The notes below the pieces were generated by a model. The model saw nothing but the letters and a program-made list of their open reading frames with translations, did not search any database and was not told the origin of the DNA. This document shows positions 33,580 to 51,677 of a stretch of 64,000 nucleotides of DNA, one piece after another. This DNA comes from Fictibacillus terranigra (GTDB taxonomy: Bacteria; Bacillota; Bacilli; Bacillales; Fictibacillaceae). Every line of letters begins with the position of its first letter. The stretch's first letter is position 1. The stretch lies in contig NZ_JAUHLN010000001.1 of assembly GCF_030412265.1 (NCBI RefSeq), positions 1,433,438 through 1,497,437 of the forward strand, in the 5' to 3' direction. A program made the position numbers and the translations under genes.

Positions 33580-33859
33580 TAACTTAACAGCTTTTTGATT
33601 CTTTATCGAAATACATATAACCGATCAGGTACGGCGGCTATTTGGACATAGCTTCGTTGCAAAATACTCAACGAGCACTGGATTCCTGCCAAGCGCGGGG
33701 CAAAAGTACATCATCGTGAGGAACAGTATTCTGCTCTACTTTTTTGGTGTTATGTTTATTGTAACAATGCAGAGCAATCTTTATTCCCTGGTACAGACAC
33801 CTAACAAGCCCAACCGGGCATACAGATAAGAGTAACAAAAAAAGCCGGGAGGTGTTTGT
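33580..33859. other. sigK upstream region
   Basis: About 280 bases. A minus-strand frame here (EQNTVPHDDVLLPRAWQESS) has a coding look but no start and soon stops, so it may be a relic. Near its right end is the sporulation-like -10 element described separately. Nothing else is supported. Confidence 0.4.
33819..33827 (+). promoter_or_regulatory. Sigma-E/K-like -10 element
   Basis: CATACAGAT matches the mother-cell -10 core CATACA, placed 33 bases before the sigK ATG. The -35 is not clear. sigK of B. subtilis is read first by sigma-E, then by sigma-K. Confidence 0.4.
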
Positions 33860-34327
33860 ATGTCCGGGTTGCTTGCCGTATTAGCGTACTTTTTTAAAGA
33901 AGTCATGCTGTTTGTTTCCTACGTAAAAAACAATGCATTTCCGCAGCCCCTCTCCGAAAATGAAGAGAAAGAATACTTAAAAGCGATGGCCGAAGGGGAC
34001 CAGGAGGCCAGAAGCAAACTGATCGAACACAACTTGCGTTTGGTTGCACATATCGTAAAGAAATTTGAAAATACAGGGGAAGATACGGAAGACTTGATTT
34101 CCATCGGAACCATTGGACTGATCAAGGCGATCGAGAGCTATTCGAGAGGGAAGGGTACGAAGCTTGCGACGTATGCAGCCAGATGTATTGAAAATGAGAT
34201 TCTAATGTCAATAGTGGTGCATGAAAAATACATTATAGGTAATGTGCACCCACAAGGATGGGTGCTTTTTTTATTTATATCTACTCTCCTGGTTTTGCTG
34301 GTCATGGAATCAGTTGGAGTGGTTTAG
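33860..34327 (+). CDS. sigK: RNA polymerase sigma-K, N-terminal half, interrupted (SpoIVCB-like)
   Basis: Residues 1-116 match sigma-K closely: the pro-sequence region with [12 protein letters not shown], then region 2 ([53 protein letters not shown]). Similarity ends exactly there; the next 39 codons (SIVVHEKY to ESVGVV) are unrelated, and regions 3-4 (promoter -35 binding) are absent. Codons 112-113 contain AATGA (34193-34197), the crossover sequence I recall for the skin element in B. subtilis sigK. No SpoIIIC half or SpoIVCA recombinase is in the window. RBS GGGAGGTG. Either an active skin-type split gene or a broken copy. Confidence 0.9.
34246..34272 (+). terminator. Terminator just beyond the sigK junction
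   Basis: GCACCC pairs with GGGTGC around 8 bases, then TTTTTTT. It lies 48 bases after the AATGA junction, inside the out-of-family tail, and would stop sigK transcription in the unrearranged state. Confidence 0.8.
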
Positions 34328-34593
34328 CCATGAGATTTCAAATTTAAGTAATAATGAACGGAAAAAATCTTAAGACTGGATACAGTAAATAAGACTACAG
34401 CTAACACAGAGCTTTTTCACTATCATTATGTGGGTTTTGTGACAAAATGGACTATACTTGTTCACTTATATTTTTCGATTGTAATAGGGAAGGAAATGTA
34501 AAGGGTTTGATTAGGACATATATACCTTTCAAAAAATGAACGAGAGCATATCCTAAAAAATAAATATGATTAGGAGGAAACCAAATTAGAAAC

Positions 34594-35460
34594 ATGGACA
34601 TGAACCCATCAGATCTTTGCATAGAATTTGCAAGGATCCTCAATTCAACACCTAGTGTGGTTAATGGTGTTTGCTTGGCTACGCGGTCACGCACGAACAT
34701 TCATCCAGTGGTTTTAGGAAGAAAGGCTGAGTCTTTTATGTTTGTTCCCCAAGCGTTTTCGTTCGAAAATATGGACGAAAAAGGGAATGCACTATGCCTA
34801 GGGGAGACTGTTATTCTTCAAGAAGAAATCAACCCATTTTTAACCAAGCTTCGCCAGTTTGGTATTATTGTTACTGCCGTTCATAATCACTGGCTTTTTG
34901 ATAAGCCACGACTTATGTATATGCATTTTGAATCAATCGATCAACCACTTGGATTTGCCAGAAAAGTTAGAGAAGCTATGAAGGTTTTAATTACCCGAGA
35001 TGTTTATGGTAACTGTGATTACGAAAAGAAAGTAATAATAGGTAATCCAGGTCTTTGTGATGAATTCAATGACATTCTTGGTGGGGCAATGCACACTTTT
35101 GAAAATGGAATTTGTACGGTAATGAAATTGCGTAACAATATAAAACCTGTTGTCCTTGGTAGACGAGGAAGGTCATTTTTACTCATTCCTCAAATGTTTA
35201 CATTTGAGTCCATGACAAAAGATGGTCGTGCGCTTTGTAGTGGGGAAACTGTAATCCTTCAAGAGGAAATTAATCCCTTTATTAGTAAATTACGTGAACA
35301 TGGGATTATCGTTACTGCGGTTCATAATCATTGGCTTTTTGAAAGTCCACGGCTTATGTTTATGCATTTTGAATCAATCGATAAACCACTGGCCTTTGCA
35401 AAGAAAGTAAGGGATGCATTAAGCGTGCTTACTACTAAAAAGGTCCGTGGCCATTGTTAA
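34594..35460 (+). CDS. DUF1259 protein, tandem duplication
   Basis: 288 residues made of two ~140-residue repeats. Each has LCxEFxxIL, then PVVLGR(K/R)..SF, GETVILQEEINPF, KLRxxGIIVTAVHNHWLF and PRLM(Y/F)MHFESID. The conserved His/Glu set (HNHW, MHFE) suggests a metal or ligand site in each half. No signal peptide, unlike mycobacterial LppY/LpqO of the same family. AGGAGG at 34572-34577 is 16 bases from this ATG but 7 from an in-frame ATT at 34585. Function unknown. Confidence 0.82.
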   Translation: MDMNPSDLCIEFARILNSTPSVVNGVCLATRSRTNIHPVVLGRKAESFMFVPQAFSFENMDEKGNALCLGETVILQEEINPFLTKLRQFGIIVTAVHNHWLFDKPRLMYMHFESIDQPLGFARKVREAMKVLITRDVYGNCDYEKKVIIGNPGLCDEFNDILGGAMHTFENGICTVMKLRNNIKPVVLGRRGRSFLLIPQMFTFESMTKDGRALCSGETVILQEEINPFISKLREHGIIVTAVHNHWLFESPRLMFMHFESIDKPLAFAKKVRDALSVLTTKKVRGHC

Positions 35461-35485
35461 TTAATAAATGCTTTAGTGATTTAAA

Positions 35486-35515
35486 CATGCGATTCTCATA
35501 AAGAATCGCTTTTTT
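35486..35515 (+). terminator. Terminator after DUF1259 gene
   Basis: GCGATTCT pairs with AGAATCGC around 5 bases, followed by TTTTTTC. Confidence 0.9.
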
Positions 35516-35939
35516 CTTTAACTTATAACTCCTAGTTTGAAAAGTTTCACCTTCAACTAAACTGCCACTTTAACTCAATAAAAAAGCCATTTCAGTGGAT
35601 GAAAATATTCAATTGTTGAACCCTAACAACCTGAAAGAAACAAATAGAAGCATGAAACAAATGGATGGTTTTTAATTTTGTCTGAAATGTTATCAATTGA
35701 TAACGACGCTGAAAGATTTGGTCGTTCTTGTCCAACATTTTTCCTTAGCTTAAAGAGCTGTATTGTATTGATTCTATTTCAGGTACAACTCCAAGGCATC
35801 TGTGTGGAACTCGGATGCTATTGGTCCAGACGGTCGCTTTCATCAGTTTCGTTGCCCTCACGCTGATTGTTTAGTTTTTATTCAACAAACGGGTGCATTC
35901 TTAAATAGAAAGCGCCTTTTTTTTGCATGATCCAATAGG
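35516..35939. other. Intergenic, no supported gene
   Basis: About 420 bases. Short frames here have no ribosome site. At 35884-35896 stands AACAAACGGGTGC, identical to a motif at 62958-62970. It leads into a GGTGC/GCGCC stem and T8, a likely terminator (35891-35926) oriented plus. Confidence 0.5.
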
Positions 35940-37106
35940 TCAAACAGTTGCGTTTCTGTTTTCATTAATTTTTAAGAAAAACAGAAAAATTTTCAGTTGG
36001 ACTGCATCATTGAAACGTTTTGGATTTAATCCCCAAAGCTGTTTCACCTTATCAAGTCGATAGTTTACTGTATTTCGGTGAACATTTAATTGTTTAGAAG
36101 TTAGTTCAACATTTAAATCCAAGTCTAAGAACATTTCAAGAGTATCTTGTAACTCGGAATCTAAATAAGAAGAACTTTGATGTGAAAATTCATTAAAATA
36201 GGAATTCATGAATTCCTCTGGGATTTTATCCAGTATTCTTGTAATGCCCCATTCATGAATGTGCATAACCTTTTTTGGATAATTCAACTTTTTTATTATT
36301 TTAATGCTTTGTGATGCCTCCTTGTAGCTTTCCCGGTATCCAATAATGGTTTTTTTAGAAGTACCAATGCCTATACAAACATCAAAATGCTCATTCCTTA
36401 ATTTTTCATATATGCGCTCCGATAAATGCCTGATTTTAATCAAATCGTGATTATTTTTATCTTGAAATGCCATCATAAATTGATCTTTTCCAATGAAGGA
36501 AATGAAATGTGGAGTGAAATAAAGACTCATAAGCTGCAGAATTCGTTCCTGTTTTTCCGATAACTCGTCATATATTGATGTTTTATTGGTGAAGTCTCCC
36601 ACTTCTACCAGAACAAACGTACATAATTGCGCTGTATTCATCTTAAGGAATTCAGCTCTTTTTTCTAAGTCAATGAAATTTGTGAAATGTGGGTTAACTA
36701 GGTCAAGAGCCCATTCCTGAATAACCTTCCTTTTTTGGTTGAGCTGCCCACTCAAATAATGTTGCTGTAAAAGAGCTTCGACCGTTATTTTAACAATGGA
36801 GGCGATATTATAAACTTCTTTAGGATCCCCCGTTATACCTACAGTGCCAATGCATTCATTTAGATATAAGATTGGTAAATTCACTCCTGGTTTAGTGCCC
36901 ATTAAATTTCCACATTCAGAAGGATAGATCAAACGTTCCGATTTCATTTCCATGACTTCGATGGCACCTTGATGAACCTGATGAATCCTCTCTGAATCGC
37001 TGCTGGCAACGATGACACCGTCGGCATCCATTATGTTAATGTTACGGCCTGCAACTTTTGCTATTTTTCCAATGATCGGCTGTGCAAGTTCTGATGTAAT
37101 CAACAT
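35940..37106 (-). CDS. CdaR-family regulator (sugar diacid type)
   Basis: 388 residues. The N-terminal sensor (about 1-135) reads LAQPIIGKIAKVAGRNINIM and GTKPGVNLPI, typical of the diacid recognition domain. The C-terminal PucR-type HTH is QLNVHRNTVNYRLDKVKQLW near 345. ATG 37106 follows AAGGAG by 9 bases. It diverges from the glycerate kinase gene. CdaR proteins sense glycerate or sugar diacids and activate neighbouring glycerate genes, which fits the location. Confidence 0.9.
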   Translation of the reverse strand: MLITSELAQPIIGKIAKVAGRNINIMDADGVIVASSDSERIHQVHQGAIEVMEMKSERLIYPSECGNLMGTKPGVNLPILYLNECIGTVGITGDPKEVYNIASIVKITVEALLQQHYLSGQLNQKRKVIQEWALDLVNPHFTNFIDLEKRAEFLKMNTAQLCTFVLVEVGDFTNKTSIYDELSEKQERILQLMSLYFTPHFISFIGKDQFMMAFQDKNNHDLIKIRHLSERIYEKLRNEHFDVCIGIGTSKKTIIGYRESYKEASQSIKIIKKLNYPKKVMHIHEWGITRILDKIPEEFMNSYFNEFSHQSSSYLDSELQDTLEMFLDLDLNVELTSKQLNVHRNTVNYRLDKVKQLWGLNPKRFNDAVQLKIFLFFLKINENRNATV

Positions 37107-37272
37107 CGATCTCAACTCCTTCAAAATAATAGTACTTCACTTTTTGTGCATTTGAACAAAAATTTTCCGATTTTGTGCGGTGAAATTTAGAAATATAGTT
37201 AATGAATTTATGTAGATTATTAGATAGATTAATAATATGACAATTTTGAATAGACAAAAAGCGAGGCTTATG

Positions 37273-38394
37273 ATGCGAATAATAATAGCTCCTGATTCAT
37301 TTAAAGAATGTCTTTCGGCAAGGGAAGTAGCAATTAGTATACGAAAAGGATTTGAATCTGAATTACCTGCCGCTAAGGTTGATATTTTTCCAATGGCTGA
37401 TGGCGGAGAAGGAACGATGGATGCATTAGTTTATTCCACTAAAGGAAGAAAAGTGGAAATAAGAAGCACAGGTCCCCATGGTAAAGAGACAAATTCCTGC
37501 TATGGAGTTTTAGGGGATGAACAGACCGTAGTTATTGAAGTTGCAAATGTAGCGGGCCTACAGATGGTGATTGAAAGGAACCCGCTTATTACAACCTCAT
37601 ATGGTTTGGGTGAACAGATTAACCATGCGTTGAATGAGGGATACCGTAAATTTATCATAGGTTTAGGTGGAAGCGCCACCAATGACGGCGGGATGGGCAT
37701 GTTACAGGCGTTAGGCGGGATCTTTCTTGATAAAAAAGGTACTATGGTTCCACCTAATGGAGGCGGACTCGAACAAATTCATTCTATTGACTTGTCTGGT
37801 ATTAACCCAATACTGACAGAATGTGAATTAATCGTAGCGAGTGATGTTGATAATGTTCTCTGCGGTCCAAGCGGAGCATCCCATGTGTTTGGTCCTCAAA
37901 AAGGGGCAACACCTGAAGATGTTGTACGGCTGGATTTTGGTTTAAAACATTATGCTGACCTTTTGGAAAGAACATTAGGTGGGTCAATGCAAAACGAGGC
38001 GGGTGCTGGCGCCGCTGGGGGATTGGGATTTGCCTTTTTAGTACTCGGCGCCCAAATTCAATCGGGAGCCAAAATTGTAGCTGAGGCAATGGAATTGGAG
38101 CACCAAATAAAATCTGCGGATTGGGTTGTGACAGGCGAGGGAAAGTCTGATTTTCAATCTTTATACGGGAAAGTTCCCATTTATGTTGCGAAAATTGCTG
38201 AACGCTACAATGCCAAACCGTTATTAATTTCTGGATCGTTGGGAAGAGGGTATGAGCAATTATATGATTATTTTATTAGCTGCCAATCAATCACAAATGG
38301 TCCGATGAGTTTGCAGGATGCCATTAACAATGGTAAACAATTACTGATAAATACATCACGGGATGTAGCAAGGCTCATTAAGTTAATTAAATAG
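37273..38394 (+). CDS. garK: Glycerate kinase (GarK/GlxK family)
   Basis: Phosphorylates D-glycerate (to 2-phosphoglycerate in this family). The 373-residue protein opens RIIIAPDSFKECLSAREVA and shows FPMADGGEGT, the glycine-rich FIIGLGGSATNDGGMGML, NEAGAGAAGGLG and VVTGEGKSDFQSLYGK. I choose ATG 37273, 6 bases after GCGAGG. First gene of a run with an amidase and a permease, divergent from cdaR. With the mannosidase cluster downstream it would consume the glycerate released from mannosylglycerate. Confidence 0.93.
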   Translation: MRIIIAPDSFKECLSAREVAISIRKGFESELPAAKVDIFPMADGGEGTMDALVYSTKGRKVEIRSTGPHGKETNSCYGVLGDEQTVVIEVANVAGLQMVIERNPLITTSYGLGEQINHALNEGYRKFIIGLGGSATNDGGMGMLQALGGIFLDKKGTMVPPNGGGLEQIHSIDLSGINPILTECELIVASDVDNVLCGPSGASHVFGPQKGATPEDVVRLDFGLKHYADLLERTLGGSMQNEAGAGAAGGLGFAFLVLGAQIQSGAKIVAEAMELEHQIKSADWVVTGEGKSDFQSLYGKVPIYVAKIAERYNAKPLLISGSLGRGYEQLYDYFISCQSITNGPMSLQDAINNGKQLLINTSRDVARLIKLIK

Positions 38395-38430
38395 TGGGAA
38401 TTAAAAAGTAAAATAGAGGAGGTTCTCAAA

Positions 38431-39297
38431 TTGACAAAGGTCGCGATTGGACAAATTACACCAGTTACTGGTGACAAAAAGCAAAATTTAAAGAAAATGA
38501 AGGAGCTGACGCTTGAAGCGGTGGAGCAAGGCGCCCAATTAATCGTGTTTCCGGAACTAGCATTAACCGGATATAACTGTGGTGATGACTTTTTCGAAGT
38601 GGCCGAACCAATACCGGGAGAGGCAACATGTTTTTTTGAAGAATTGGCGCACAATCATGATATCCATATTATTTGGGGCATGCCGGAGAAAAGTATTAGC
38701 GGTGTTCTATATAATGCAGCTGCATTAGTAGGACCCAATGGATTTATTGGAAAATGGAGAAAGAATACGTTGCCAGGACACGCAACAGACCAAACAGGAC
38801 CGGGAGCGTTTCCAGACCGCAGATATTTTAAAGCAGGTGAAGACTTACCCGTTTACGATACTGAAATAGGAAAAATAGGAGTATTGATCTGTTACGATAT
38901 CTTTTTTCCTGAATTATCACGTGCACTTACGATGAAAGGTGCTGATTTAATCGTTGGAATTTCTGGTTCTCCCACATTTGAAAAAGAGATATTTGAGCCG
39001 ATCGTCAAAGTTCGGGCAATGGAAAATATCATTAATTTTGTTTATACCAACCTGGTGGGGAAAGAAGGGGATACCGAGTATTGGGGTGGAGGCTGTATTG
39101 TAAGTGCCGGTGACAAGGAGACCAAGGTACCAGGGCATCCAATTCTCTGTAAAGCGCCATACGAGGGAGAATGTATCACTCTGGCTGAAATCGATATTCA
39201 AGCCCATCATAAGGTTCGGCCGTATTTTCCGGTATTAAGAGATCTAACAACACGAATGTATGAACAACTTGCTGATATCCATCGAAAATTGTCTTAA
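38431..39297 (+). CDS. Carbon-nitrogen hydrolase (nitrilase-superfamily amidase)
   Basis: 288 residues with the full Glu-Lys-Cys triad: FPELALTGY (Glu), GKWRKNTLPGH (Lys) and LICYDIFFPE (Cys). These enzymes split amides or carbamoyl compounds, releasing ammonia. TTG start at 38431, 8 bases after GAGGAGG. It lies 36 bases after glycerate kinase. The pairing suggests an amide whose acid product is glycerate, for example glyceramide. That substrate is inference only. Confidence 0.88.
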   Translation: MTKVAIGQITPVTGDKKQNLKKMKELTLEAVEQGAQLIVFPELALTGYNCGDDFFEVAEPIPGEATCFFEELAHNHDIHIIWGMPEKSISGVLYNAAALVGPNGFIGKWRKNTLPGHATDQTGPGAFPDRRYFKAGEDLPVYDTEIGKIGVLICYDIFFPELSRALTMKGADLIVGISGSPTFEKEIFEPIVKVRAMENIINFVYTNLVGKEGDTEYWGGGCIVSAGDKETKVPGHPILCKAPYEGECITLAEIDIQAHHKVRPYFPVLRDLTTRMYEQLADIHRKLS

Positions 39298-39335
39298 TTA
39301 TTGTTAAGAAAAAAATTGAAAAGGTGGGGGAAGGT

Positions 39336-40808
39336 ATGAGTAAGTGGAAAGAATGGTTTCAGGGGCCTCAGGATATTACCAAAGCAGAAGCGGTAGAAGA
39401 TTATGCGATAGGCCGTGTTCCTGCTCGTTACCGCTGGCCAATACCCGCAATTATTCTTGTTCTTTTAGGAAATTCGACGGCGATGTTTTTCTTTACTTAT
39501 GGTGCCGAATTTGGTTATACAGTTGGCTGGCCGACCATGCTCATCCCTATTTTGTACTTTTTTATCGGTGCCACCATTATCGGTTCATGCACGATGAAGA
39601 TTGCCAGCAAAGAAGGCCTGTCGATGAGTCTGTTAACAAGAGGGCTTGGTTTTGGGTACTTGGGCTCGGCGGTAACATCATTGATATATGCGATTAACTA
39701 TATCTTTTATTTTATTTTTGAAGGAACAATCGTTACCCATGCTATTGCCAATTATGCAGGTATTGAAATTAATTCCGCTGGGGGAATAGCGATTTTTGCT
39801 GTTTTAGGTTTAATAACGATCTGGTTTGTGTGGAAAGGGATGACGTCCATGCAATTTTTGCAAACATGGGGAGTTCCTATCTTTCTTATTTTATTCCTTA
39901 TTGGAATGTATCAGCTTTCGTTTAATTATGATATTGTTGGAACGGCTTCCTGGATGCCAAGAAACGATGTAACAGCAACTACGATGTGGACGGCAATGAA
40001 TATGGCCAATGGCCAGCTTGTATTTCAGGGTTTATTGGCTACAGATTATGGACGTTTTGCGAAACCAAGTATAACGTATAAAGGAACCGCTACGATTATG
40101 GTCGGAATGTTAATTCCGATGCTTGCCGTTATACTTCTCGGGGCAATGCTCGCTTATACACTTTTGCCCAACCTTGAAAATACCACCTATTCGCTGGCTT
40201 CTGATCCAGGTTTTGTGTTCCCTTTTGTAATGGGAATAGTTGGTGTTGTGTTTGCGGTCATAACCCAAATAAGAATCAATGTCATGAATTTGTACTCCGG
40301 ATCGTTGGCTCTATCCAATACGATGGACAGTATGTTTAATTATCGTCCTGGCCGACAATGGTGGATGATGTTGGTTTGGCTGTTAGGGGTCATATTTTAC
40401 GCGGTGAATGTTCTTCAATATATGAATACTTTCCTGGCTATTACCGGTATATTAACGAACACCTGGGTTTTCATTATCCTAACAGATTATTATATCTGCA
40501 GAAAAGTGTTTAAACTGGCTCCCACTGAATTTGTGGAGTATCGACAGGAGTATCTTCGTTCCTGGAACCCGGCAGGTATTATATCTTTATCCGTAGCTGT
40601 TATTATTGGCACACTTGGTGTGTTTAATGTTTATCCGATTTACTACGCCTCCTTTTTAGCGATGCTTACTGGACCTGTGTTACATGTACTCATATCAGTA
40701 ATGACAAAAGGGAAATACTATTTTTCGAAGTTTCCTGCAGATGTTGAAACCAACTGGTCACCGGGAGTTTCATATTCAAGTGCTGACAGGAGTTCAAGTA
40801 CAAACTGA
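39336..40808 (+). CDS. NCS1-family permease (cytosine/purine/allantoin type)
   Basis: 490 residues and about 12 helices. The family start is EDYAIGRVPARYRWPIPAI, with GNSTAMFFFTYGAEFGY in helix 1-2 and MNLYSGSLALSN in helix 8. NCS1 permeases import nucleobases, hydantoins or related nitrogen compounds with Na+ or H+. ATG 39336 follows GGTGGGGG. Last gene of the garK-amidase-permease operon; it probably brings in the amide used by the hydrolase. Substrate unknown. Confidence 0.85.
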   Translation: MSKWKEWFQGPQDITKAEAVEDYAIGRVPARYRWPIPAIILVLLGNSTAMFFFTYGAEFGYTVGWPTMLIPILYFFIGATIIGSCTMKIASKEGLSMSLLTRGLGFGYLGSAVTSLIYAINYIFYFIFEGTIVTHAIANYAGIEINSAGGIAIFAVLGLITIWFVWKGMTSMQFLQTWGVPIFLILFLIGMYQLSFNYDIVGTASWMPRNDVTATTMWTAMNMANGQLVFQGLLATDYGRFAKPSITYKGTATIMVGMLIPMLAVILLGAMLAYTLLPNLENTTYSLASDPGFVFPFVMGIVGVVFAVITQIRINVMNLYSGSLALSNTMDSMFNYRPGRQWWMMLVWLLGVIFYAVNVLQYMNTFLAITGILTNTWVFIILTDYYICRKVFKLAPTEFVEYRQEYLRSWNPAGIISLSVAVIIGTLGVFNVYPIYYASFLAMLTGPVLHVLISVMTKGKYYFSKFPADVETNWSPGVSYSSADRSSSTN

Positions 40809-40849
40809 TCTATATTTTTTGGATATGCCGTTTAATACAACAATAAGAA

Positions 40850-40887
40850 AGAAGAACCTGTTTTAATACATGGTTCTTCTTTTTTGT
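40850..40887 (+). terminator. Terminator after permease
   Basis: AAGAAGAACC pairs with GGTTCTTCTT, then TTTTG. Confidence 0.9.
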
Positions 40888-40894
40888 ACCTGTG

Positions 40895-40908
40895 TGTAAG
40901 CGTTTCCT
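40895..40908 (+). promoter_or_regulatory. cre (CcpA) site candidate
   Basis: TGTAAGCGTTTCCT fits the cre core WTGNAANCGNWNNCW at all but the outermost base. It lies about 160 bases before the PTS IIA start and would give glucose repression of the mannosylglycerate genes. A TATAAT follows at 40956-40961 with a poor -35, as expected for an activator-dependent promoter. Confidence 0.6.
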
Positions 40909-41070
40909 ATGCACTTAGGAAAAGAGTTAATTTTTATTCTGTTAAGCACGGTTTTATAATAATAAGTGTAGTTCAATAGGAGGTTCCTTCACTAATAACT
41001 AGATAAGTAAACAAGAAATAAATCCGGATTATTTCTTATACCGCTACCAAAGAGAATGAGGGTGGAATTT

Positions 41071-41544
41071 TTGGAAATAACATCATTGATTAATGAAGAC
41101 CTGATAGATCTCAAAATTGATGCTTCAAATCAACAAGCAGTGATTGAGTACCTGGCTTCGTTACTCGAAAACCAGGATCGCATTGAATCAAAATCAGCTT
41201 TTATTCAAGGGGTAATGGAAAGGGAATCACAATTCACAACAGGCTTTGGAAATGGGATTGCGATTCCGCATTGCAAAAGTGAAACCGTCAAGAATACGAG
41301 CATTGTTATTGGAAAAATGAAAAATGAAGTGGATTGGAAAGCAATGGATGATCGAGGAGTTTCATTTGTAATCATGCTTGCCATCCCAGAATCAGAAGGT
41401 GGAACCACTCATCTTCAAATTCTATCCACACTGTCTGGAAAATTAATCGATGATGATTTTCGGACAAGTTTAATGAATGCTGCACATAAAGAGAATGTAT
41501 TACGTTTATTAGAAGATTGCGTTAGTAAAAAATCCAACTCATAA
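41071..41544 (+). CDS. PTS fructose/mannitol-type IIA component
   Basis: Carries phosphate from HPr to the IIB protein. 157 residues; the phosphorylated His is in TTGFGNGIAIPHCKSE. I prefer TTG 41071 (MEITSLINED) because GAGGGTGG lies just upstream; ATG 41056 has no site. First gene of a IIA-IIB-IIC-mannosidase-regulator operon. In E. coli MngA these three parts are one polypeptide. Confidence 0.9.
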   Translation: MEITSLINEDLIDLKIDASNQQAVIEYLASLLENQDRIESKSAFIQGVMERESQFTTGFGNGIAIPHCKSETVKNTSIVIGKMKNEVDWKAMDDRGVSFVIMLAIPESEGGTTHLQILSTLSGKLIDDDFRTSLMNAAHKENVLRLLEDCVSKKSNS

Positions 41545-41556
41545 GGAGAGATTGTT

Positions 41557-41868
41557 ATGAAATTGATCGCTATTACAGCTTGTCCCGCTGGTGTTGCACA
41601 TACACATATGGCTGCTGCTGCCTTAGAAGCTTCTGCTAAAAAAATGGGTTTAAAAATTAAGGTTGAAAAACAAGGTGCGATGGGAATTGAAAACGCCATC
41701 AAAGAAAAAGAAGTCTCAGAAGCAGAAGCACTTATTCTTGCGGTAGATACGGCCATTGCAAAGTCTGAACGATTTAATAATATCCCAACCGTTAAAGTTT
41801 CAGTTGCAGAGGCGGTAAAAAATCCTCAAGGATTACTAAATCAGGCTATCGAACTTGCAAAGAAATAA
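41557..41868 (+). CDS. PTS fructose-type IIB component
   Basis: 103 residues. The active-site Cys is in ITACPAGVAHTHMAA, the hallmark of fructose-class IIB. It transfers phosphate to the sugar during uptake by IIC. It begins 12 bases after IIA with AAGGAGAG upstream. Confidence 0.93.
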   Translation: MKLIAITACPAGVAHTHMAAAALEASAKKMGLKIKVEKQGAMGIENAIKEKEVSEAEALILAVDTAIAKSERFNNIPTVKVSVAEAVKNPQGLLNQAIELAKK

Positions 41869-41893
41869 TCGTTGTTAGGAAAGGAAGGTCACT

Positions 41894-42913
41894 ATGAAAA
41901 AGGTGCTAGAAGAAGCAAAAACACATCTAATGACCGGTGTTTCATATATGCTGCCTTTCGTCGTAGCGGGGGGATTGTTACTTACGATCGGATTACTGCT
42001 TGGCGGTGGAGAACAAGAAACAGGCTACGCTAAAAAAATAGTAGAAACCGGTACTCTCATTTTCTCTCTTATGGTCCCAGTTATGGCGGGTTATATGTCA
42101 TACTCGATTGCTGACAGGCCGGGTATTGCTCCTGGAATGGTAGGTGGTTTGATTGCAAATGAAATCGGAGCAGGCTTTTTAGGCGGGATTGTTGCAGGTT
42201 TCCTTGCGGGTTATATCGTAGAGGGACTAAAAAAAATGCCTATGCATAGATATTTTGCTCAATTAAAACCAATCATTGTTATTCCTTTATTGGGCGCAGG
42301 AAGTGTTGCGTTATTAATGTATATTATAGGTCAGCCGATTGCTGCACTTTCAAAAGAATTAACCGCTTGGTTAACTTCATTAAGCGGCGGGAACTTATTA
42401 ATTCTTGGGCTAATTATAGGTGCTATGATGGCGTTTGATATGGGAGGACCTGTTAATAAAGTAGCTTTTGCTTTCTGTGTAGGTATGTTGAAAGATGGTG
42501 TATATGCTCCAATGGCGGCTTGTTGGATCGGAATCATGACACCGCCTATTGGTTTAGCACTTGCAACCAGACTAGCTCCAAAGAAATTTACGTTAGCAGA
42601 AAGACAAAGTGCGCTTCCAAGTACATTCATGGGAGCAACAGGAATAACGGAGGGGGCTATTCCATTTGCAGTAAGTGACCCACTGCGTGTTATTCCATCG
42701 ATTGTCATTGGTTCAGCGGTTGGCGGCGGGTTAGCGCTTTCATTAGGTGCAAAAGCCCCAGTCCCAAGTGGCGGTGTATTCGTACTGCCATTCTTCACAA
42801 AACCCATTATGTTCTTAATTGCTTTTACAGCTGCAATCCTTGTAACGGCTTTTATAGTAGCTGCCTTAAAGAATAATATTGAAGAAGAAATGCCGATTAC
42901 AGAAGAAGCGTAA
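41894..42913 (+). CDS. PTS fructose-type IIC permease
   Basis: 339 residues and about nine helices. HLMTGVSYMLPFVVAGGLLL, DMGGPVNKVAFAFCVGML and ITEGAIPFAVSDPLR are the conserved IIC segments that form the sugar channel. It imports the sugar as its phosphate together with IIA and IIB. The adjacent GH38 mannosidase points to 2-O-mannosylglycerate. Confidence 0.93.
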   Translation: MKKVLEEAKTHLMTGVSYMLPFVVAGGLLLTIGLLLGGGEQETGYAKKIVETGTLIFSLMVPVMAGYMSYSIADRPGIAPGMVGGLIANEIGAGFLGGIVAGFLAGYIVEGLKKMPMHRYFAQLKPIIVIPLLGAGSVALLMYIIGQPIAALSKELTAWLTSLSGGNLLILGLIIGAMMAFDMGGPVNKVAFAFCVGMLKDGVYAPMAACWIGIMTPPIGLALATRLAPKKFTLAERQSALPSTFMGATGITEGAIPFAVSDPLRVIPSIVIGSAVGGGLALSLGAKAPVPSGGVFVLPFFTKPIMFLIAFTAAILVTAFIVAALKNNIEEEMPITEEA

Positions 42914-42986
42914 ATCATAAATTTGAGAGGGGGGATCTAAATCATAGGTTCCCCTTGTTTTTCATTATAATAATGGAGGCATCTAA

Positions 42987-45626
42987 ATGAACTTTCATGT
43001 TATTTCCCACACTCACTGGGATCGAGAGTGGCACCAAACCTATCAACAATATCGTGTAAAGCTTGTAAGGTTTATGGATGAGTTAATTCAATTGCTGGAC
43101 AATAGTCCAAAGTATACATCGTTCATGTTGGACGGACAAACGATTGTATTAGAGGATTATTTAGAGATCAAGCCTAATCAACGTGAATCAATAGCAAAGC
43201 TGGTTAGAGAAGGCCGATTACTCATTGGACCGTGGTATATCCAACCGGATGAGTTTATTCCGAGCGGGGAATCTCTTATTCGTAACTTGTTAATTGGTCA
43301 GCAAATCGCTAATGAGTTCGGAATGGCCATGAAAATTGGCTATCTTCCAGATTCCTTCGGACAGGCTGCACAAATTCCTCAGGTATTAAATGGATTTGGT
43401 ATTCATCACGCACTGTTTTGGCGTGGTATTACAAACGAGGAAACAGAGAAAACAGAATTCTGGTGGGAAGGACCGGATGGGTCAAAGGTGTTTACAACCC
43501 ATTTGCCATTAGGCTATGGAAATGGAAGAATGCTTTCTGCTAACCTCGATCAAAATTTGAAAATCATTGATGATAATATGAATGATTTAAATAAAATGCT
43601 TACGTCCCCTAATCTGTTATTAATGTGTGGCTTTGACCAAAGAAGTGCAGTGAAAGAGCTTCCGGAAATCGTTGAAGAATTGAATCGTCATTTTTCTTCT
43701 CAAGGTTTAGATTATTCGATAAAAATCAGCCAGCTCATGGATTACTTTACAGCGGTAAAGAAAGAAACAGAAAACCTGGAAACCATTGCGGGAGAATTTA
43801 GAAAAGGTAAAAATATGCGCGTTCATGTAAGTATCGCATCAACCCGCTTGGACTTGAAAAAGGAAAACTTTGAAGTTCAAAACTTATATGAAAAGTACCT
43901 GGAACCTCTTAATTCAATGTCTCTTCTTCTAGGCAACAGTTACGACAATGCAATAATCAATAAGGGATGGAAATATACACTTCAAAACCATGCGCATGAT
44001 TCCATTTGCAATGTTTGCACAGATGCTACGCATAAGGAAATGGAATTAAGGTATCAATTTGCTAAGCAAATCGGGCAGACTCTTCAAAATGACACAACGG
44101 CAGATCTAATTGATAAAATCCAATTTGATTACAACAAAGGCAACCCCCTTGTTGTGTTTAACACATTGGGTCACAAAAGAAGCAATATTGCAGATGCTGT
44201 TCTTCAATTAAAATCAAAGCATTTTGCCATTACGGATTCTGCAGGAAATCACGTTCCTTATCAAATTGTTGAAACCAAGCAAGAAAACTTAAACGATAAA
44301 CAAATTGAGATTGGCGTAAAGAACGAAGATCACTTTGTATGGACGACCCATATCAAGTTTCTTGCAGAAATGAATGGCTTCGGTTATAAAACATTCTATC
44401 TCAAAGAGAATGAATCCACTGAGCATGATTCGTCTCTTGTTTATCAAGACGGTGTATTTTCAAATGATTATTTTCAAGCAGAAGTTCAACCAAATGGATC
44501 CCTTGCCGTTAAAGAACATTCAACAGGAAGGATATTTTCTAGCCTCAATGTATTCGAAGAGGGTGGGAATGCGGGAGATGAATATGATTTTTCTCCGCCT
44601 AGGGAAGATGAAATCATAACAACAAAGGACTCTGCTCCTGAGATATCAGTCGTTCATAATGGTCCTGTTTTTGCTACCGTAAGGATCGTTCATACTCTGC
44701 ATTTTCCTGTGGATTCGGATGTTAACGGGCGTTCAAAGGAATTCAGAGTGTCCACGATTGAAAGCTTTGTCACGGTAAACCGTCATGAGGACAGAATAGA
44801 TATAAGAACAGTTATAGATAACACGGTGAAAAATCATAGAATTCGTGCCCTTTTTGAAACAGGGCTTAAGGCAGGCACTCATATCGCTGATCAACAATTC
44901 GGAACCATTCGCCGTGATAATGTTCTGCCTCAAGTAGAATATTGGGAAGAAGAAAACTGGGAGGAAAAGTATTATCCAATCTATCCTCAACAAAAATTTG
45001 TCGATGTCTCAGATGAAAAAAATGGGCTTTCTATTTTTAATAAAGGACTGCCTCAATATGAGATACTGAGTGGACAAGAACCAACCATTGCACTTACATT
45101 GCTGTGTGGAACAGATTATATGGGTAACCAGGACCTAGTGGACCGCCCCGGAAGAAGATCAGGACTTCATGTTGAAACACCAGATAGCAGTCTGATAGGA
45201 AAGTATGAAATGGAGTATTCCATCGTCCCATATTCCGGCGGCAGTACCAGGGCGGAAATTGGAAGGAAGTCTAACGAATATGTAACTCCATTATTAGCGA
45301 TTCCGGTCTATCATCAGTCTGAAACAGCAATGGTTAAAGATCAGAATGAATTCTTTAAAATTGATAACCCGCATATGGCTATCAGTGCTGTAAAAAAATG
45401 CGAAAATGATGACAGTATCATTGTACGAATATATAATACAACCGATCAGGTACTTCCGTTGGTAAAGGCTTCTGTAAACCCGGAATTCTTCAATAAAATT
45501 GAACTGGTGGATTTAAATGAGATTCTTATTTCTGAAGCAGATGAACGAATTCAATTAAATCATAACGAGATCGGAATAAACGATGTTGCGAGTAATGAAA
45601 TTTTTACCTTGAAAATAAGTAAATAA
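42987..45626 (+). CDS. mngB: GH38 alpha-mannosidase, mannosylglycerate hydrolase type
   Basis: Expected to split 6-phospho-mannosylglycerate into mannose-6-phosphate and glycerate. 879 residues. Zinc site and catalysis: ISHTHWDREWHQTY at the N-terminus, the nucleophile Asp in IGYLPDSFGQAAQIP near 119, and NHAHDSICN near 336. The C-terminal half is the beta-rich GH38 part with DLVDRPGRRSG. No signal peptide, so it acts in the cytoplasm on a PTS product. It follows IIC by 73 bases with AATGGAGG before the ATG. A plain alpha-mannoside phosphate is the alternative substrate. Confidence 0.9.
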   Translation: MNFHVISHTHWDREWHQTYQQYRVKLVRFMDELIQLLDNSPKYTSFMLDGQTIVLEDYLEIKPNQRESIAKLVREGRLLIGPWYIQPDEFIPSGESLIRNLLIGQQIANEFGMAMKIGYLPDSFGQAAQIPQVLNGFGIHHALFWRGITNEETEKTEFWWEGPDGSKVFTTHLPLGYGNGRMLSANLDQNLKIIDDNMNDLNKMLTSPNLLLMCGFDQRSAVKELPEIVEELNRHFSSQGLDYSIKISQLMDYFTAVKKETENLETIAGEFRKGKNMRVHVSIASTRLDLKKENFEVQNLYEKYLEPLNSMSLLLGNSYDNAIINKGWKYTLQNHAHDSICNVCTDATHKEMELRYQFAKQIGQTLQNDTTADLIDKIQFDYNKGNPLVVFNTLGHKRSNIADAVLQLKSKHFAITDSAGNHVPYQIVETKQENLNDKQIEIGVKNEDHFVWTTHIKFLAEMNGFGYKTFYLKENESTEHDSSLVYQDGVFSNDYFQAEVQPNGSLAVKEHSTGRIFSSLNVFEEGGNAGDEYDFSPPREDEIITTKDSAPEISVVHNGPVFATVRIVHTLHFPVDSDVNGRSKEFRVSTIESFVTVNRHEDRIDIRTVIDNTVKNHRIRALFETGLKAGTHIADQQFGTIRRDNVLPQVEYWEEENWEEKYYPIYPQQKFVDVSDEKNGLSIFNKGLPQYEILSGQEPTIALTLLCGTDYMGNQDLVDRPGRRSGLHVETPDSSLIGKYEMEYSIVPYSGGSTRAEIGRKSNEYVTPLLAIPVYHQSETAMVKDQNEFFKIDNPHMAISAVKKCENDDSIIVRIYNTTDQVLPLVKASVNPEFFNKIELVDLNEILISEADERIQLNHNEIGINDVASNEIFTLKISK

Positions 45627-45645
45627 CGTCATCAAAAAGGGTGAT

Positions 45646-45692
45646 TCCTTGAAACAGAGAGTTGGAAGACTCTTTTCAAGGTCTTCCTTTTA
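45646..45692 (+). terminator. Hairpin between mngB and regulator
   Basis: CCTTGAAA pairs with TTTCAAGG, followed by TCTTCCTTTT. Imperfect tail; it may attenuate rather than end transcription. Confidence 0.5.
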
Positions 45693-45777
45693 ATGTATGG
45701 CATTTTTTTATCTAGCATGAAAAGCAAGTCAGATGAAATAATAGTAAGGATATCTGCTAAGAAAGGGGGGACACTTT

Positions 45778-47757
45778 TTGGATTTTTTAAACAATCGTCT
45801 AAAAGAAATAATTAAAGAATTACTAGCAAACGAAGAGCCTGTCACAAGCGGATACTTATCAAAGGTATTGGCGGTCACATCACGGACGATAAGAAATGAT
45901 ATATCTGCTTTAAATCATGAGTTGAAAAAAATCGGTGTGAAAATAGATGCTCAAAGAGGAATTGGCTACTTTATACAACCGACCCCCGACAAGAAAATCA
46001 GAGAATTAATTGAAGAATTGTTCCAGTTAAATCAACCATCGGAAGCACAAACCCTGCCTATTTTACCCGAAGAAAGAGTTCTGTACATTTTAAAAAACAT
46101 CATTATGGCTGATGATTTTATAACAATTGAGCAATTAGCCAGGGAATTATTTGTAAGTAAATCAACGGTAGACAACGATTTAAAACAAGTAGAAAAGCTA
46201 TTGAGTAAATTTGATGTCTCCATTTATAAAAAACCAAACTATGGAATAAAAATAGCAGGAAATGAGATGAACATTCGTTTTTGTTTATCAGATTGTTTGG
46301 CCAATATTAAAAATGAGCAAACAAAAACAGTGGAAAATAACAACCATTTTTTGGCCGAAGGAATAGATATTGATTTAATTGAAAACATCACAAAACAACA
46401 TATTCAGCAGCTGCCTTTTAATATAGCAGAAATGCCGTTGAATAACTTAATTATGCATATTGCGATTGGAATACAACGCATAAAAAAGGGGAAAAACGTT
46501 GAACTTGATAAATTGGAGCTTAATCATCTAGAAGAAGAGAAAGAATACGTTGTGGCATCCAATATCGTAAAGTCATTGGAAAGGGAATTCTCCATAAACA
46601 TTCCGGATGAGGAAATCGCGTATATTACCATTCACCTACTCGGAGCAAAGCGGTTTCGGGATGGAAATATATTACGAGATGATTTTATTGAATTAATCGG
46701 AAAAAGTAATTATCAACTAGTGATAGATATTCTAGAAGAGATAAACACAGTATATCGGATTGATTTAATGGACGATAAAGAACTTATTTATGGATTGGGA
46801 TTGCATTTACGATCAGCTATGAACCGAATGAGATATAAAATGAACCTTCGAAATCCGATGTTGAAAGAAATCAAAAAAAACTACCCTTTTGCTTTTGAAT
46901 TAGCCGTTGTTGCTTCTGACATCATTCTGAGAGAACACCAAATGAAAATAAATGAAGATGAGATTGGATACATTGCTGTTCATTTAGCTGCAGCAATCGA
47001 AAGTATAAAAAATAAGAAAAAGCGTAAGGTAAGGCGAGTAGCCATTGTTTGTGCTTCAGGTATGGGAACAGCCAAGCTTCTAGCTGCAAGCATTGAAGGT
47101 GAGTTTCCAGGATTAAATATTGTTGGAACGTATCCTTCTTATTCCTTAAAGGATATTGAAAATCAAGATGTTGATTTAATCTTAAGTACAGTTCCAGTAA
47201 AAGAAGAACGAACGATCCCGATTCTGCATATTAACGCATTATTAACAGAAAAAGACGTGGATATGGTCAATAACTATATTTCACGAAGGTTTTTAAATGA
47301 TGACCAAGAGAAATCGTTTGAAAAACTCCGGAATTTATTTAGTGAAGAATTATTTTTCCCGGAGATTGAAGAAGAAGAACCGGCAGCCATTATTAAATCA
47401 TTGGCTAGCGCATTAAATAGGAAGGGATATGTAGATGATTCCTACCTGGATTCTGTTCTTGAACGGGAAGATATATCACCCACTTCAATTGGCAATTTAG
47501 TAGCTATTCCACATCCGGTAAAACAAAATGCACTCGATTCATGCATTGCGATTGGGATTCTAAAAAAACCGGTGCAATGGGGAGGGAACCACGTCCAATT
47601 AGTGTTTCTCCTCGCTTTAAATGAAAAAGACAAGGAAGAATTCAGCACCCTTTTTGACCGGCTCTGGAAGGTAGTCCATAATAAGAATTTGGTTGAGGAA
47701 TTTTGCAAAACCTCTAGCTTTACTGTAGTGATGACTAAATTAGGAAAAATTAAATAA
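45778..47757 (+). CDS. PRD-containing transcriptional activator (BglG/MtlR/ManR type)
   Basis: 659 residues: HTH_11 at 1-65 (TSGYLSKVLAVTSRTIRNDI), a second HTH near 110-150 (IEQLARELFVSKSTVDND), PRD1 about 205-305 (ITIHLLGAKR), PRD2 about 315-415 (LGLHLRSAM; IAVHLAAAIE), an EIIB-like domain about 420-505 (VAIVCASGMGTAKLL, Cys), and a IIA-like domain about 525-659 (LVAIPHPVK, His). Phosphorylation of these by the PTS would set activity. TTG start after AAAGGGGGG. Likely activator of the PTS-mngB operon. Confidence 0.9.
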   Translation: MDFLNNRLKEIIKELLANEEPVTSGYLSKVLAVTSRTIRNDISALNHELKKIGVKIDAQRGIGYFIQPTPDKKIRELIEELFQLNQPSEAQTLPILPEERVLYILKNIIMADDFITIEQLARELFVSKSTVDNDLKQVEKLLSKFDVSIYKKPNYGIKIAGNEMNIRFCLSDCLANIKNEQTKTVENNNHFLAEGIDIDLIENITKQHIQQLPFNIAEMPLNNLIMHIAIGIQRIKKGKNVELDKLELNHLEEEKEYVVASNIVKSLEREFSINIPDEEIAYITIHLLGAKRFRDGNILRDDFIELIGKSNYQLVIDILEEINTVYRIDLMDDKELIYGLGLHLRSAMNRMRYKMNLRNPMLKEIKKNYPFAFELAVVASDIILREHQMKINEDEIGYIAVHLAAAIESIKNKKKRKVRRVAIVCASGMGTAKLLAASIEGEFPGLNIVGTYPSYSLKDIENQDVDLILSTVPVKEERTIPILHINALLTEKDVDMVNNYISRRFLNDDQEKSFEKLRNLFSEELFFPEIEEEEPAAIIKSLASALNRKGYVDDSYLDSVLEREDISPTSIGNLVAIPHPVKQNALDSCIAIGILKKPVQWGGNHVQLVFLLALNEKDKEEFSTLFDRLWKVVHNKNLVEEFCKTSSFTVVMTKLGKIK

Positions 47758-48504
47758 TGATAGTTAAGTTTAATTTTATGGCCGCAAGCAAGAAGAGGGG
47801 GCTGGGTGTTAAAAAAAATCGGCGAAATTGTTATTTGCCGTTCTGATGTTTAGTCGATTGTCTGCCAGAAAGTAAATCCTACAAAGGGGTTGAGATATAC
47901 GGGATTACCAGCAGTAAGATAATACTCTCCTAATCAAGAAAAAACAAGGTGAATAAAAGCCATCTCTTCGTAAAGTTTACCCCATGTGAAGGACATTTTA
48001 AAAAAGGCTAGGATCACTTCATAAAAAATTAGGCACCTTCTTGAACGTTTTCGTACTAAGAAAGTGCCTATTTTCATTTACCTTTTTGTTGTTGCACCTT
48101 GTATTTCCATACCAAATAGACCCGCAGTTGATGCCGTATCATACCCTTGTCCATGTTTAAATTCCCTATTTTTTGCTTCAATTTTTAACGTGAACGTGCT
48201 AGTTCTTTAAACTCTTCACTGTTTTGGAATGCTTCCTGTTCCTTATGTACCCTATGTGTCTACACTATAGGGTACACATAATATAGGGGATAGGCTTTTT
48301 ATTTGGCTTTTCGCTTATAAATACTCTTTATGAAACTAAGTAACAAGGTGTTTAACAAGATGCATTTTATCATGCATCTTATTTGTTATGTCTACGTAAT
48401 GAAAATGAAAGGTATAGTTTCAATTGGTTCTGAATCTTTGTGGCGTATAATTATTTTTCCTGACCATATATATTCTATATATGATTTGGACAAGGAATGA
48501 TTTC
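47758..48504. other. Gene-poor stretch with three inverted repeats
   Basis: About 745 bases without a supported gene. It holds a terminator-like stem (AGGCAC.TCTT / AAGA.GTGCCT, 48029-48066) with a T-rich tail. It also holds a long near-perfect palindrome at 48243-48280 (TTATGTACCCTATGTGT and its complement with one bulge) and a stem AAGATGCAT / ATGCATCTT (48357-48382). The palindrome is listed separately. Confidence 0.5.
48243..48280. repeat. Long imperfect palindrome
   Basis: TTATGTACCCTATGTGT, two central bases, then ACAC-T-ATAGGGTACA-c-ATAA. Nearly every base is paired. It has no T run, so it is not a terminator. It may be a protein-binding site or a relic of a mobile element. Confidence 0.55.
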
Positions 48505-49086
48505 ATGATTCGAAAAATTAAAATAACAGTTTTATCAAGCTTACTGATGGGAATTGGCATAAACGGGTTTATTATTCCGATTCACTTAATTAATGGAGGA
48601 TTATGGGGCGTTAGTTTAATTCTTAATTATTTACTTGGGTTTAAGGTTGCCATTACCTTTATTTGCTTAAATGCTCCGATTTTTATAGTTGCCCGTCTAT
48701 ATGATAAAACCTATTTTTTTAACGGGTTGTTAGGGGTTTTAATCTCTAGTGTAATAATTTATTTGTTAACGCCAATTCAGTTTATGGTACACATGTCAAC
48801 TTTATGTAGTGTTCTCCTTGGTGGTACCGCTATTGGCATTGGTTTAGGATTTATGTTGAGGGAACATATCAGTCCTGGGGGAATTGACTTACTAGCATTG
48901 ATTATTTCGAAATTATTTTCTATAAATGTTGGAATGGCTTTGTTATTATTAGATGCCATTATTATTTTTATTGGAATCTTAACCCTTAGAGATGAAAGAC
49001 TAATATATTCTTTGACAATCGTTATAATAGCTGGATTAACTGCAACAATTATAACCTCAATTAAAAGTATTAAGGTATACGTGTAG
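48505..49086 (+). CDS. YitT-family membrane protein, short form
   Basis: 193 residues with five to six helices. INGGLWGVSLILNYL near 27 and EHISPGGIDLLALIISKLF near 115 are the duplicated N/SPGG-type motifs of the YitT/DUF161 family. The C-terminal DUF2179 domain of full-length members is missing; the protein stops right after the last helix at IKVYV. ATG 48505 follows AAGGAATGA. An IS21-type element begins 19 bases after the stop. Role unknown. Confidence 0.8.
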   Translation: MIRKIKITVLSSLLMGIGINGFIIPIHLINGGLWGVSLILNYLLGFKVAITFICLNAPIFIVARLYDKTYFFNGLLGVLISSVIIYLLTPIQFMVHMSTLCSVLLGGTAIGIGLGFMLREHISPGGIDLLALIISKLFSINVGMALLLLDAIIIFIGILTLRDERLIYSLTIVIIAGLTATIITSIKSIKVYV

Positions 49087-49098
49087 AATGAAATATCA

Positions 49099-49104
49099 GC
49101 CTCC
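49099..49104 (+). repeat. Target site duplication, left copy
   Basis: GCCTCC directly left of the IS end; the same six bases follow the right end at 51745-51750. Confidence 0.8.
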
Positions 49105-49171
49105 TGATTACAGCCATTGAAATGTACCACGTCTGACATCTTATTTACCAAAGAGTGACAAAGAATTTACC
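49105..49171 (+). repeat. IS21 left terminal inverted repeat
   Basis: 67 bases matching the reverse complement of 51678-51744 at most positions, including TTATTTACCA, GAGTGAC and the final TTTACC. Confidence 0.88.
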
Positions 49172-49268
49172 AGTTGAGGACATGATACCGACCAAACAAA
49201 TATAATGCCTCTATATAATTGATGTGCACATCCTCAGGTGTGACATCGATACATAGGAGGTATTTTTT

Positions 49269-50827: not shown

Positions 50828-51569
50828 GCAAACGATGACCAAGTTGAATGAAATGAAATTAAATGGGATGGCCGAGGCCTATGCGGAACAGGCGTCCAAT
50901 AGAGATTTTCAAAAAATGGACTTTGATGAGCGCTTTTCGTTACTCGTCGATTTGGAACATTCCCGTCGAAAAAACAATAAGCTGCATCGGCTGATCAACG
51001 CCGCCTCTTTCATAAATTCTAATGCCTGTATCGAAGATATTGAATACCACGCAGATCGCCGCCTGAACAAAGAGCAGATACTGAAGCTGGCCAGTGGCGC
51101 TTACATCTTGGATGGCCATAATCTGATTTTGAAGGGTCCGACAGGATCGGGAAAAACTTACCTTGCGACCGCATTTGGCGTATCAGCTTGTCGGCAATCC
51201 TTCAGAGTGCGGTATATCCGATTACCCGAACTGCTTGATGAACTCACGTTAGCGAAGCTGGCAGCTGACGGAAGTTATCGACGACTCATCAAAAAATACA
51301 CAAAAGTGGACCTACTCATTCTCGACGAATGGCTTTTAACTGATCTGACGACTGATGAAGCAGCAATTCTGCTTGAGATTTCCGAGTCCCGACATAAAAC
51401 AGTCTCCACCATCTACTGCTCACAAATCGATCCTAGCGGGTGGCACTTGAGATTAGGGAACGAAACCATCGCAGAAGCGATACTCGACCGGATCATCCAT
51501 GACTCCTATCAGATATTGATTGATGGGGAGGTCTCTATGCGCGAGCGCCACGGATTAGCTCAGAGATAA
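50820..51569 (+). CDS. istB: IS21 helper ATPase IstB
   Basis: DnaA/DnaC-like AAA+ ATPase that selects the target and stimulates IstA. 249 residues: Walker A LKGPTGSGKTYLA near 106, Walker B LLILDEWLL near 166, and sensor TIYCSQ. ATG 50820 stands after GGAGGGG and overlaps the end of istA by 8 bases, the normal coupling. It appears intact and could act in trans with a complete IstA. Confidence 0.94.
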   Translation: MNEQTMTKLNEMKLNGMAEAYAEQASNRDFQKMDFDERFSLLVDLEHSRRKNNKLHRLINAASFINSNACIEDIEYHADRRLNKEQILKLASGAYILDGHNLILKGPTGSGKTYLATAFGVSACRQSFRVRYIRLPELLDELTLAKLAADGSYRRLIKKYTKVDLLILDEWLLTDLTTDEAAILLEISESRHKTVSTIYCSQIDPSGWHLRLGNETIAEAILDRIIHDSYQILIDGEVSMRERHGLAQR

Positions 51570-51590
51570 ACGGTGCCTGAGGCACCTTGA

Positions 51591-51643
51591 GGAAAGCAAA
51601 ACGGAAGCCCTGCAGACCCAATGACTTTGGCCTGTAGGGCTTC
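51591..51643 (+). terminator. Hairpin after istB
   Basis: GGAAGCCCTGCAG(A) at 51611 pairs with CTGTAGGGCTTCC around about 18 bases. A strong stem inside the right end of the IS, with no long T run. Confidence 0.5.
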
Positions 51644-51677
51644 CCTGTGTGAGATGGTCAGTAAATTGGCACAAAAC

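Follow-up and report, generated by a model that had tools for sequence, protein, structure and literature searches.

The sigK 5′ half in the window

The window is a 64,000-nucleotide stretch of contig C8 of Fictibacillus terranigra (C8:1433438-1497437), taken from a 16-contig draft genome of 4.97 Mb (G000). An open reading frame of 155 codons at 33860-34327 on the forward strand consists of the 5′ portion of sigK, a gene required late in sporulation, followed by an unrelated tail, and the features around it are as follows.

33791..33859, + strand: sigK promoter region, from conservation among the copies of the genus, by eye
33860..34197, + strand: sigK 5′ half, codons 1-112 plus GA from codon 113, corresponding to spoIVCB, from the reading frame and profiles
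34186..34213, + strand: predicted attL with crossover GA at 34196-34197, B arm ending in TATTGAAAATGA, P′ arm GATTCTAATGTCAATA
34246..34273, + strand: terminator just inside the predicted element, 3′ of the sigK 5′ half, at 34246-34265 and followed by a T run

The top families for the 155-codon frame are SigK (NF004471, 6e-61; TIGR02846, 2e-57), with profile coverage stopping at position 124 of 235 and 122 of 227, respectively, and scores under the curated cut-offs (205.6 against 252 bits and 194.5 against 298.65 bits), as expected of half a gene. A preliminary description of this DNA had reported that sigK is broken at codons 112-113 and that 39 unrelated codons and a strong terminator lie beyond the break. 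The break is borne out by the SigK match, which ends after ENEILM, and by AATGA at 34193-34197, which occupies these two codons; we take this to be the same site at which skin is inserted in B. subtilis. The 39 codons without likeness to sigK, after which a stop follows, and the terminator are both confirmed as well, and a scan of 801 bases on both strands yields two terminator-like sites against a mean of 0.4 in shuffled sequences. A search of the window genome finds no intact sigK elsewhere, a second copy being what the same description had named as speaking against an interruption. Set against intact relatives, the 5′ half has a dN/dS of 0.012-0.069 in four cases; the fifth comparison, with G003, is saturated.

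The stretch upstream of sigK is conserved from GTACAGACACC onward in the ten genus copies displayed, with changes in G003. Upstream of GTACAGACACC the bases diverge by eye, except between the two G004 copies and between G001_B and G006. The sequence CATACAGAT at 33819-33827 resembles what we take to be the -10 box of sigma-E promoters.

A second contig with the sigK 3′ half beside a large serine recombinase

Scanning the genome for sigma region 4 leads to a 138-codon frame on contig C10 that is the sigK 3′ half, about 0.9 kb downstream of the sole PF07508 match in the genome. The 3′ half and the large serine recombinase that had been anticipated elsewhere in the genome thus adjoin each other on C10.

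C10:503132-503521, - strand: sigK 3′ half, from the sigma region 4 scan
C10:503556-505142, - strand: frame of the large serine recombinase, which is open over 502 codons (PF00239, PF07508 and PF13408)
C10:504961-505158, - strand: Skr-like frame, 65 residues, from position, length and overlap

The order on the minus strand is Skr-like frame, recombinase, 24 bp, attR P arm and sigK 3′ half, the distance from the recombinase stop being 24 bp to the P arm and 37 bp to the GA core. The enzyme combines the three domains of large serine recombinases (resolvase, recombinase and zinc ribbon), and its PDB relatives by sequence include TP901-1 integrase and YokA of SP-beta. No NCBIfam model matches it over cut-off, the best being XisF, the model of the fdxN element excision recombinase, at 132 against 375 bits. 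An excess of silent changes is seen in the recombinase, whose silent sites are saturated against each of the four relatives compared. The 3′ half of sigK has no replacement changes against 43 (G004) and 54 (G005) silent ones. As read from these substitution patterns, both halves of sigK show purifying selection.

The Skr-like frame starts at a GTG 94 bp ahead of the recombinase ATG and overlaps the recombinase by 101 nt, excluding the stop; its 31 non-overlapping codons have a dN/dS of 0.06-0.20 against four relatives. A motif scan, which would miss some such frames, finds frames placed in this way at 20 of the 65 named loci; judged by eye, roughly a dozen of these resemble one another. A CATACC box upstream of the Skr-like frame and recombinase is kept in all five aligned sequences, which is only a hint of mother-cell-limited excision during sporulation.

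Predicted attachment sites and the rejoined gene

The left junction is TATTGAAAATGA-GATTCTAATGTCAATA and the right junction, on C10, is TGACATTAGAATGGA-AATCCTCATG. The segment ATTCTAATGTCA of the attL P′ arm is an inverted copy of TGACATTAGAAT, the P arm of attR. The att arms are symmetric about GA, and the two copies would flank it evenly in the predicted circle. With up to one mismatch the 12-mer of the arm occurs four times in C8 from the window start to the contig end plus the last 12.2 kb of C10, and two of these occurrences are the att arms. When the halves are joined at GA by script, the product is a 240-residue SigK of which 239 residues are identical to the intact SigK of G004. The preliminary description had expected AATGA ahead of the 3′ half, an expectation that fails: this sequence is not repeated at the right junction, and the shared part is GA, its last two bases. 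The ten named relatives displayed share the GA core; their att arms are identical or nearly identical in L113, L129 and L114 and diverged in L140, L130 and L155. The stretch left of sigK might be one more element of this series; across the window genome the attL pattern gives one sigK junction, plus a two-mismatch match on C9 in a context that is not sigK-like.

Inferred contig join and probable size of the element

34198..64000, no strand: left 29.8 kb of the predicted element, presumably continued by the remainder of C8 (59.6 kb more), a gap of about 0.72 kb and C10

Right of the left junction C8 holds 89.4 kb, and the part of C10 assigned to the element is its last 3.66 kb. The terminal 227 bp of C8 and the terminal 199 bp of C10 correspond to the left and right flanks of one repeat, with identities of 92-96% (C8 end) and 95-98% (C10 end) to copies in C12, G004, G005 and G001. 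In the four copies having both flanks these are spaced by 722-723 bp and oriented such that C8 would be joined to C10. Because the two ends flank one repeat unit, they are placed adjacent to each other, and the element is probably about 93.8 kb long with direct ends. That these ends are direct repeats on one chromosome is strongly though indirectly supported by the match and spacing of the flanks. Searched in the window genome, the terminal stretches match only themselves and the C12 copy, one side each. The earlier proposal that the 3′ half would follow downstream on the same strand therefore stands by way of two contigs joined through a repeat, with support that is strong but indirect.

The repeat unit measures about 1.15 kb and occurs at the C8 end, at the C10 end, at G000:C12:149276-150402 and in G004, G005 and G001. 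Its copies in C12 and G005, in two species, contain nearly identical reductase-like frames (named by eye); in the copies of G004 and G001 another frame is the longest. No direct overlap was found between the C8 and C10 ends, though other ends of the assembly share 55 bases; contig C7 (2.8 kb), which has N at its printed ends, was left out of this comparison. A tRNA search over the final 59.6 kb of C8 and the final 12.2 kb of C10 gave no match.

Cargo and relics within the element

34594..47757, no strand: metabolic cargo, from profiles and from reading frames by eye
49269..51569, + strand: IS21-type insertion sequence, NF033546 over cut-off at 49685-50827, neighbouring frames by position and eye
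56602..56685, + strand: relic of a recombinase 5′ end, of the same kind as the presumably active one, 86% DNA identity over 85 bases

Twenty-eight element proteins were scanned with Pfam or NCBIfam, and the remaining reading frames were read by eye. The metabolic cargo includes a DUF1259 protein, the domains of a CdaR-type regulator and a PTS EIIC of fructose type (TIGR01427) over curated cut-off; an NCS1-type permease and a mannosylglycerate hydrolase-like protein below cut-off; and, by eye, glycerate kinase-like, nitrilase-like and PTS regulator-like frames. Further element proteins are an IS110 transposase (below cut-off) and a tyrosine integrase. A set comprising an HTH regulator, an M78 peptidase, a TraG-type coupling protein, an AAA_10 ATPase and a lysozyme-M23 protein looks like conjugation genes, with no relaxase identified among the element proteins scanned. 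No phage structural family was found among the 28 scanned proteins, and the element is composite and seemingly non-phage. A phosphoenolpyruvate synthase-like frame in the element, at L020:8084-10684, is also over the cut-off of NF041857 (rifamycin-inactivating phosphotransferase).

The preliminary description saw no recombinase in the roughly 30 kb right of the break, and indeed none of full length is present at 34.2-64 kb, only the relic, which tblastn detects at 56598-56678 as 27 residues of the recombinase N-terminus at 59% identity. A recombinase 3′-end relic is found at L021:6283-6426 (90283-90426 of the window plus its tail), with 83% DNA identity over 144 bases. Four stretches left of sigK are duplicated inside the element, with 77-87% identity.

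9618-10560 and 55268-56219: duplicated stretch 1
10840-12508 and 53184-54853: duplicated stretch 2, inverted
29023-29899 and 63034-63903: duplicated stretch 3
30792-31665 and 59195-59999: duplicated stretch 4, spore coat protein-like by eye

Comparison with known elements

Known elements are compared here as described in the papers cited. The B. subtilis skin (spoIVCB, SpoIVCA, Skr and spoIIIC) shares with the element of the window the gene, sigK, and a large serine recombinase. In B. subtilis the recombinase adjoins the sigK 5′ half (PMC10745906), whereas here the recombinase and Skr-like frame adjoin the 3′ half and are read with sigK; the preliminary description was right to place the 3′ half beyond the window with a recombinase nearby, but the B. 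subtilis arrangement is not followed, the recombinase being at the far end beside the 3′ half. B. subtilis Skr has 64 residues, and the frame encoding it shares 101 nt with spoIVCA at a +1 shift (PMC6957869). The small frame found here likewise ends inside the start of the recombinase, which is in the +1 frame relative to it, the likeness being one of position, length and overlap. The element of the window differs from the B. subtilis skin in size (about 94 kb against 48 kb) and in carrying conjugation-type genes and insertion sequences; the 28 proteins scanned include no phage structural family.

The C. difficile skin and the sigK insertions of the B. cereus group are described as excisable elements with a serine recombinase that split sigK, at insertion points that by these papers' description differ from that of the B. 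subtilis element (PMC5025042, PMC10745906). The gin element in gerE of B. cereus ATCC10987 is described as 28.6 kb long with three recombinases and no phage genes (PMC5595907); like the seemingly non-phage element of the window it is gene-intervening and relies on the serine recombinase type, and it lies in another gene. At the same sigK site F. nanhaiensis carries an element of 30.3 kb and F. phosphorivorans one of about 33 kb, both with direct halves and much smaller than that of the window; their recombinases, at 81% and 77% identity, are two of the three nearest found. The element is a skin element of known kind, larger and more composite than the B. subtilis skin.

Interrupted and scarred sigK loci in the family

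Sixty-five named loci were retrieved, 48 with a sigK piece in the fetched flank (at least 62% identity) and 17 without. F. nanhaiensis, F. phosphorivorans and P. salsuginis among them appear, by their contig coordinates, to be G014, G020 and G029 of a survey of 34 family genomes, and the two sets overlap; genus g2 of the survey would then be Fictibacillus, and g4 would include Pseudalkalibacillus. In that survey sigK is full-length in 26 genomes and split in eight, at codon 112-113 in G000, G014, G020, G028, G029 and G030 and near codon 66 in G002 and G024, the sites in G024, G028 and G030 being set from match limits alone. As read from these genomes, the splits show repeated insertion at the codon 112-113 site of sigK among related bacteria.

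With up to two mismatches the attL pattern is matched in 12 of the 34 genomes, the reversed control matching once (G009). In the genus of the window (g1), 12 matches in six of seven genomes are read as sigK-type junctions (G000 1, G001 3, G002 2, G004 2, G005 1 and G006 3, including the weak L212). G001, G004, G005 and G006 have complete sigK plus such attL scars, and G001 has two complete copies. Those scars that were compared have an identical junction end followed by differing cargo that is partly common to several species, and one G006 scar begins like the element of the window. A lone sigK 3′ half was not found at E 1e-15 in G001, G004 or G006, nor on the large contig of G005. G005 does have one on a 192-kb contig, where it carries an attR-like arm and adjoins a plasmid replication-like gene (by eye); it is closest to copy B of G001 (91.8%), against 80.6% to the G005 sigK itself. 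The complete sigK of G005 stands behind a recombinase remnant that lacks its middle (ends by eye).

In two other species the halves are inverted, as listed here.

Pseudalkalibacillus salsuginis (L113), 9149-9499, - strand: sigK N half
Pseudalkalibacillus salsuginis (L113), 20481-20852, + strand: sigK C half
Pseudalkalibacillus salsuginis (L113), 10001-11584, + strand: recombinase
Caenibacillus caldisaponilyticus (L158), 1384-1752, + strand: sigK C half, single
Caenibacillus caldisaponilyticus (L158), 11595-11936, - strand: sigK N half, single

The P. salsuginis halves are the only two found in its genome, the att arms look intact, the recombinase is open, and the halves joined by script give a 237-residue SigK. 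Recombination there would invert 11.3 kb rather than excise it. The C. caldisaponilyticus recombinase is frame-shifted about two thirds along, through error or decay. With the halves in this orientation, the gene would be rebuilt in these two species only by inversion, which suggests that excision may not be the sole way to rebuild sigK. In the literature found on sigK and serine recombinases, inversion concerns plasmid constructs.

Further arrangements occur. The gene is in three pieces in Anoxybacillus sediminis (L130) and Brevibacillus laterosporus (L116) and in at least three in a Bacilli MAG (L137), with cuts near codons 62-66, 112 and/or 145; in L130 and L137 the cuts have differing serine recombinases close by. 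In L108 and L071 (G002:C46) an insertion of about 22 kb divides sigK near codon 66, and the C part on G002:C46 adjoins another recombinase, 29% identical to that of the window with one stop inside the match.

Unequal divergence of the two halves

In g1 without G003 (six sigK copies, five genomes), all 15 pairs show less silent divergence in the 5′ half than in the 3′ half, with means of 0.376 and 0.626; p<0.01 is reached in 11 pairs, the four that miss it including G000-G004 and G001A-G006. Pairs with 3′-half divergence outside 0.1-0.9 were dropped, a filter that reduces the g1 set including G003 from 21 to 17 pairs, 16 of them with the lower 5′ half, and that removed none from the other sets. 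Between G000 and G001A the silent divergence is 0.31 in the 5′ half and 0.68 in the 3′ half, with flanking genes at 0.73-0.74; between G004 and G005 the values are 0.05 in the 5′ half, 0.08 in the flanks and 0.28 in the 3′ half.

The controls were the 14 of 15 genomes of the sister genus (g2) with intact sigK (G019 left out) and all five genomes of g4, the single g3 genome being unpaired. The 5′ half is lower in 61 of 91 g2 pairs (means 0.623 and 0.672), five pairs being significant in this direction at p<0.01 and one in the opposite, and in five of ten g4 pairs, none significant in this direction and one in the opposite; pairs in these counts are not independent. The g2 trend has the same direction as that of g1 but is weak, and g4 has no trend; these control results weaken the case for a travelling 5′ half.

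We read the divergence in g1 as a sign that sigK halves have passed from species to species, the breakpoint lying close to the att core. The scars together with the less diverged 5′ half suggest that this half itself may travel between species. Tentatively, and with the balance somewhat against it, the 5′ half may be mobile cargo: incoming elements would bring the promoter and 5′ half and complete the host 3′ half at their right end, the old 5′ half would stay behind as an attL scar, and the window would represent the un-mended form of the same traffic. An element carrying the promoter and 5′ half is the simplest picture for the transfer of halves. Alternatively, circles carrying an attL may have recombined homologously, or sigK may have been duplicated in the past with insertion into one copy, and two complete copies do occur in G001.

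Interpretation of the interrupted locus

Taken together, the evidence makes it very probable that a skin-type element of about 93.8 kb splits sigK at codon 113, and the original suggestion that the region right of about 34.2 kb lies in a skin-like element is sustained by the two halves, the att arms and the recombinase. In the mother cell the recombinase and the Skr-like factor would recombine attL with attR, releasing a circle that carries attP and leaving behind an intact sigK, and the chromosome of the spore would retain the element. Counting against this reading are the position of the halves on two draft contigs whose ends show no direct overlap, a size about double that of the B. subtilis skin, the composite make-up and the low NCBIfam score of the recombinase.

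The element might instead be a fixed relic that is unable to leave, in a strain that has lost late sporulation. It contains relics of two recombinase ends of the same type (56602-56685 and, counted over the window plus its tail, 90283-90426), and many decayed 5′ halves of sigK occur in the genus; nevertheless, the two sigK halves, the Skr-like frame and the recombinase with its 502 codons are all open with an excess of silent changes and the att arms match each other, and we regard a fixed relic as very improbable. The draft is in 16 contigs with the halves on two of them, and inverted halves are known in two other species, so that the halves could be real without a simple 94-kb element between them, other contigs intervening or the ends being inverted. 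Against this, in searches of the window genome the C8 and C10 ends match, apart from themselves, only the two sides of the C12 copy, their spacing and orientation fit the four copies with both flanks, and the join makes the halves direct, which renders such an arrangement very improbable. An ordinary pseudogene or a sequencing artefact with no recombination system has in its favour the truncated frame alone and can hardly be entertained: the 3′ half, a matching att arm and the recombinase are in the same genome, features by which a simple pseudogene is ruled out, and the junction recurs in relatives.

With an interruption by a skin-type element as the preferred reading, one genus contains complete, interrupted and much-scarred sigK loci side by side. 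This makes it possible to test how bacteria tolerate, escape or mend an insertion that disrupts a gene essential to development, and whether elements of this sort burden their hosts or serve to carry gene halves. If the 5′ half does travel as cargo, sigK would have been rebuilt repeatedly from halves of different species.
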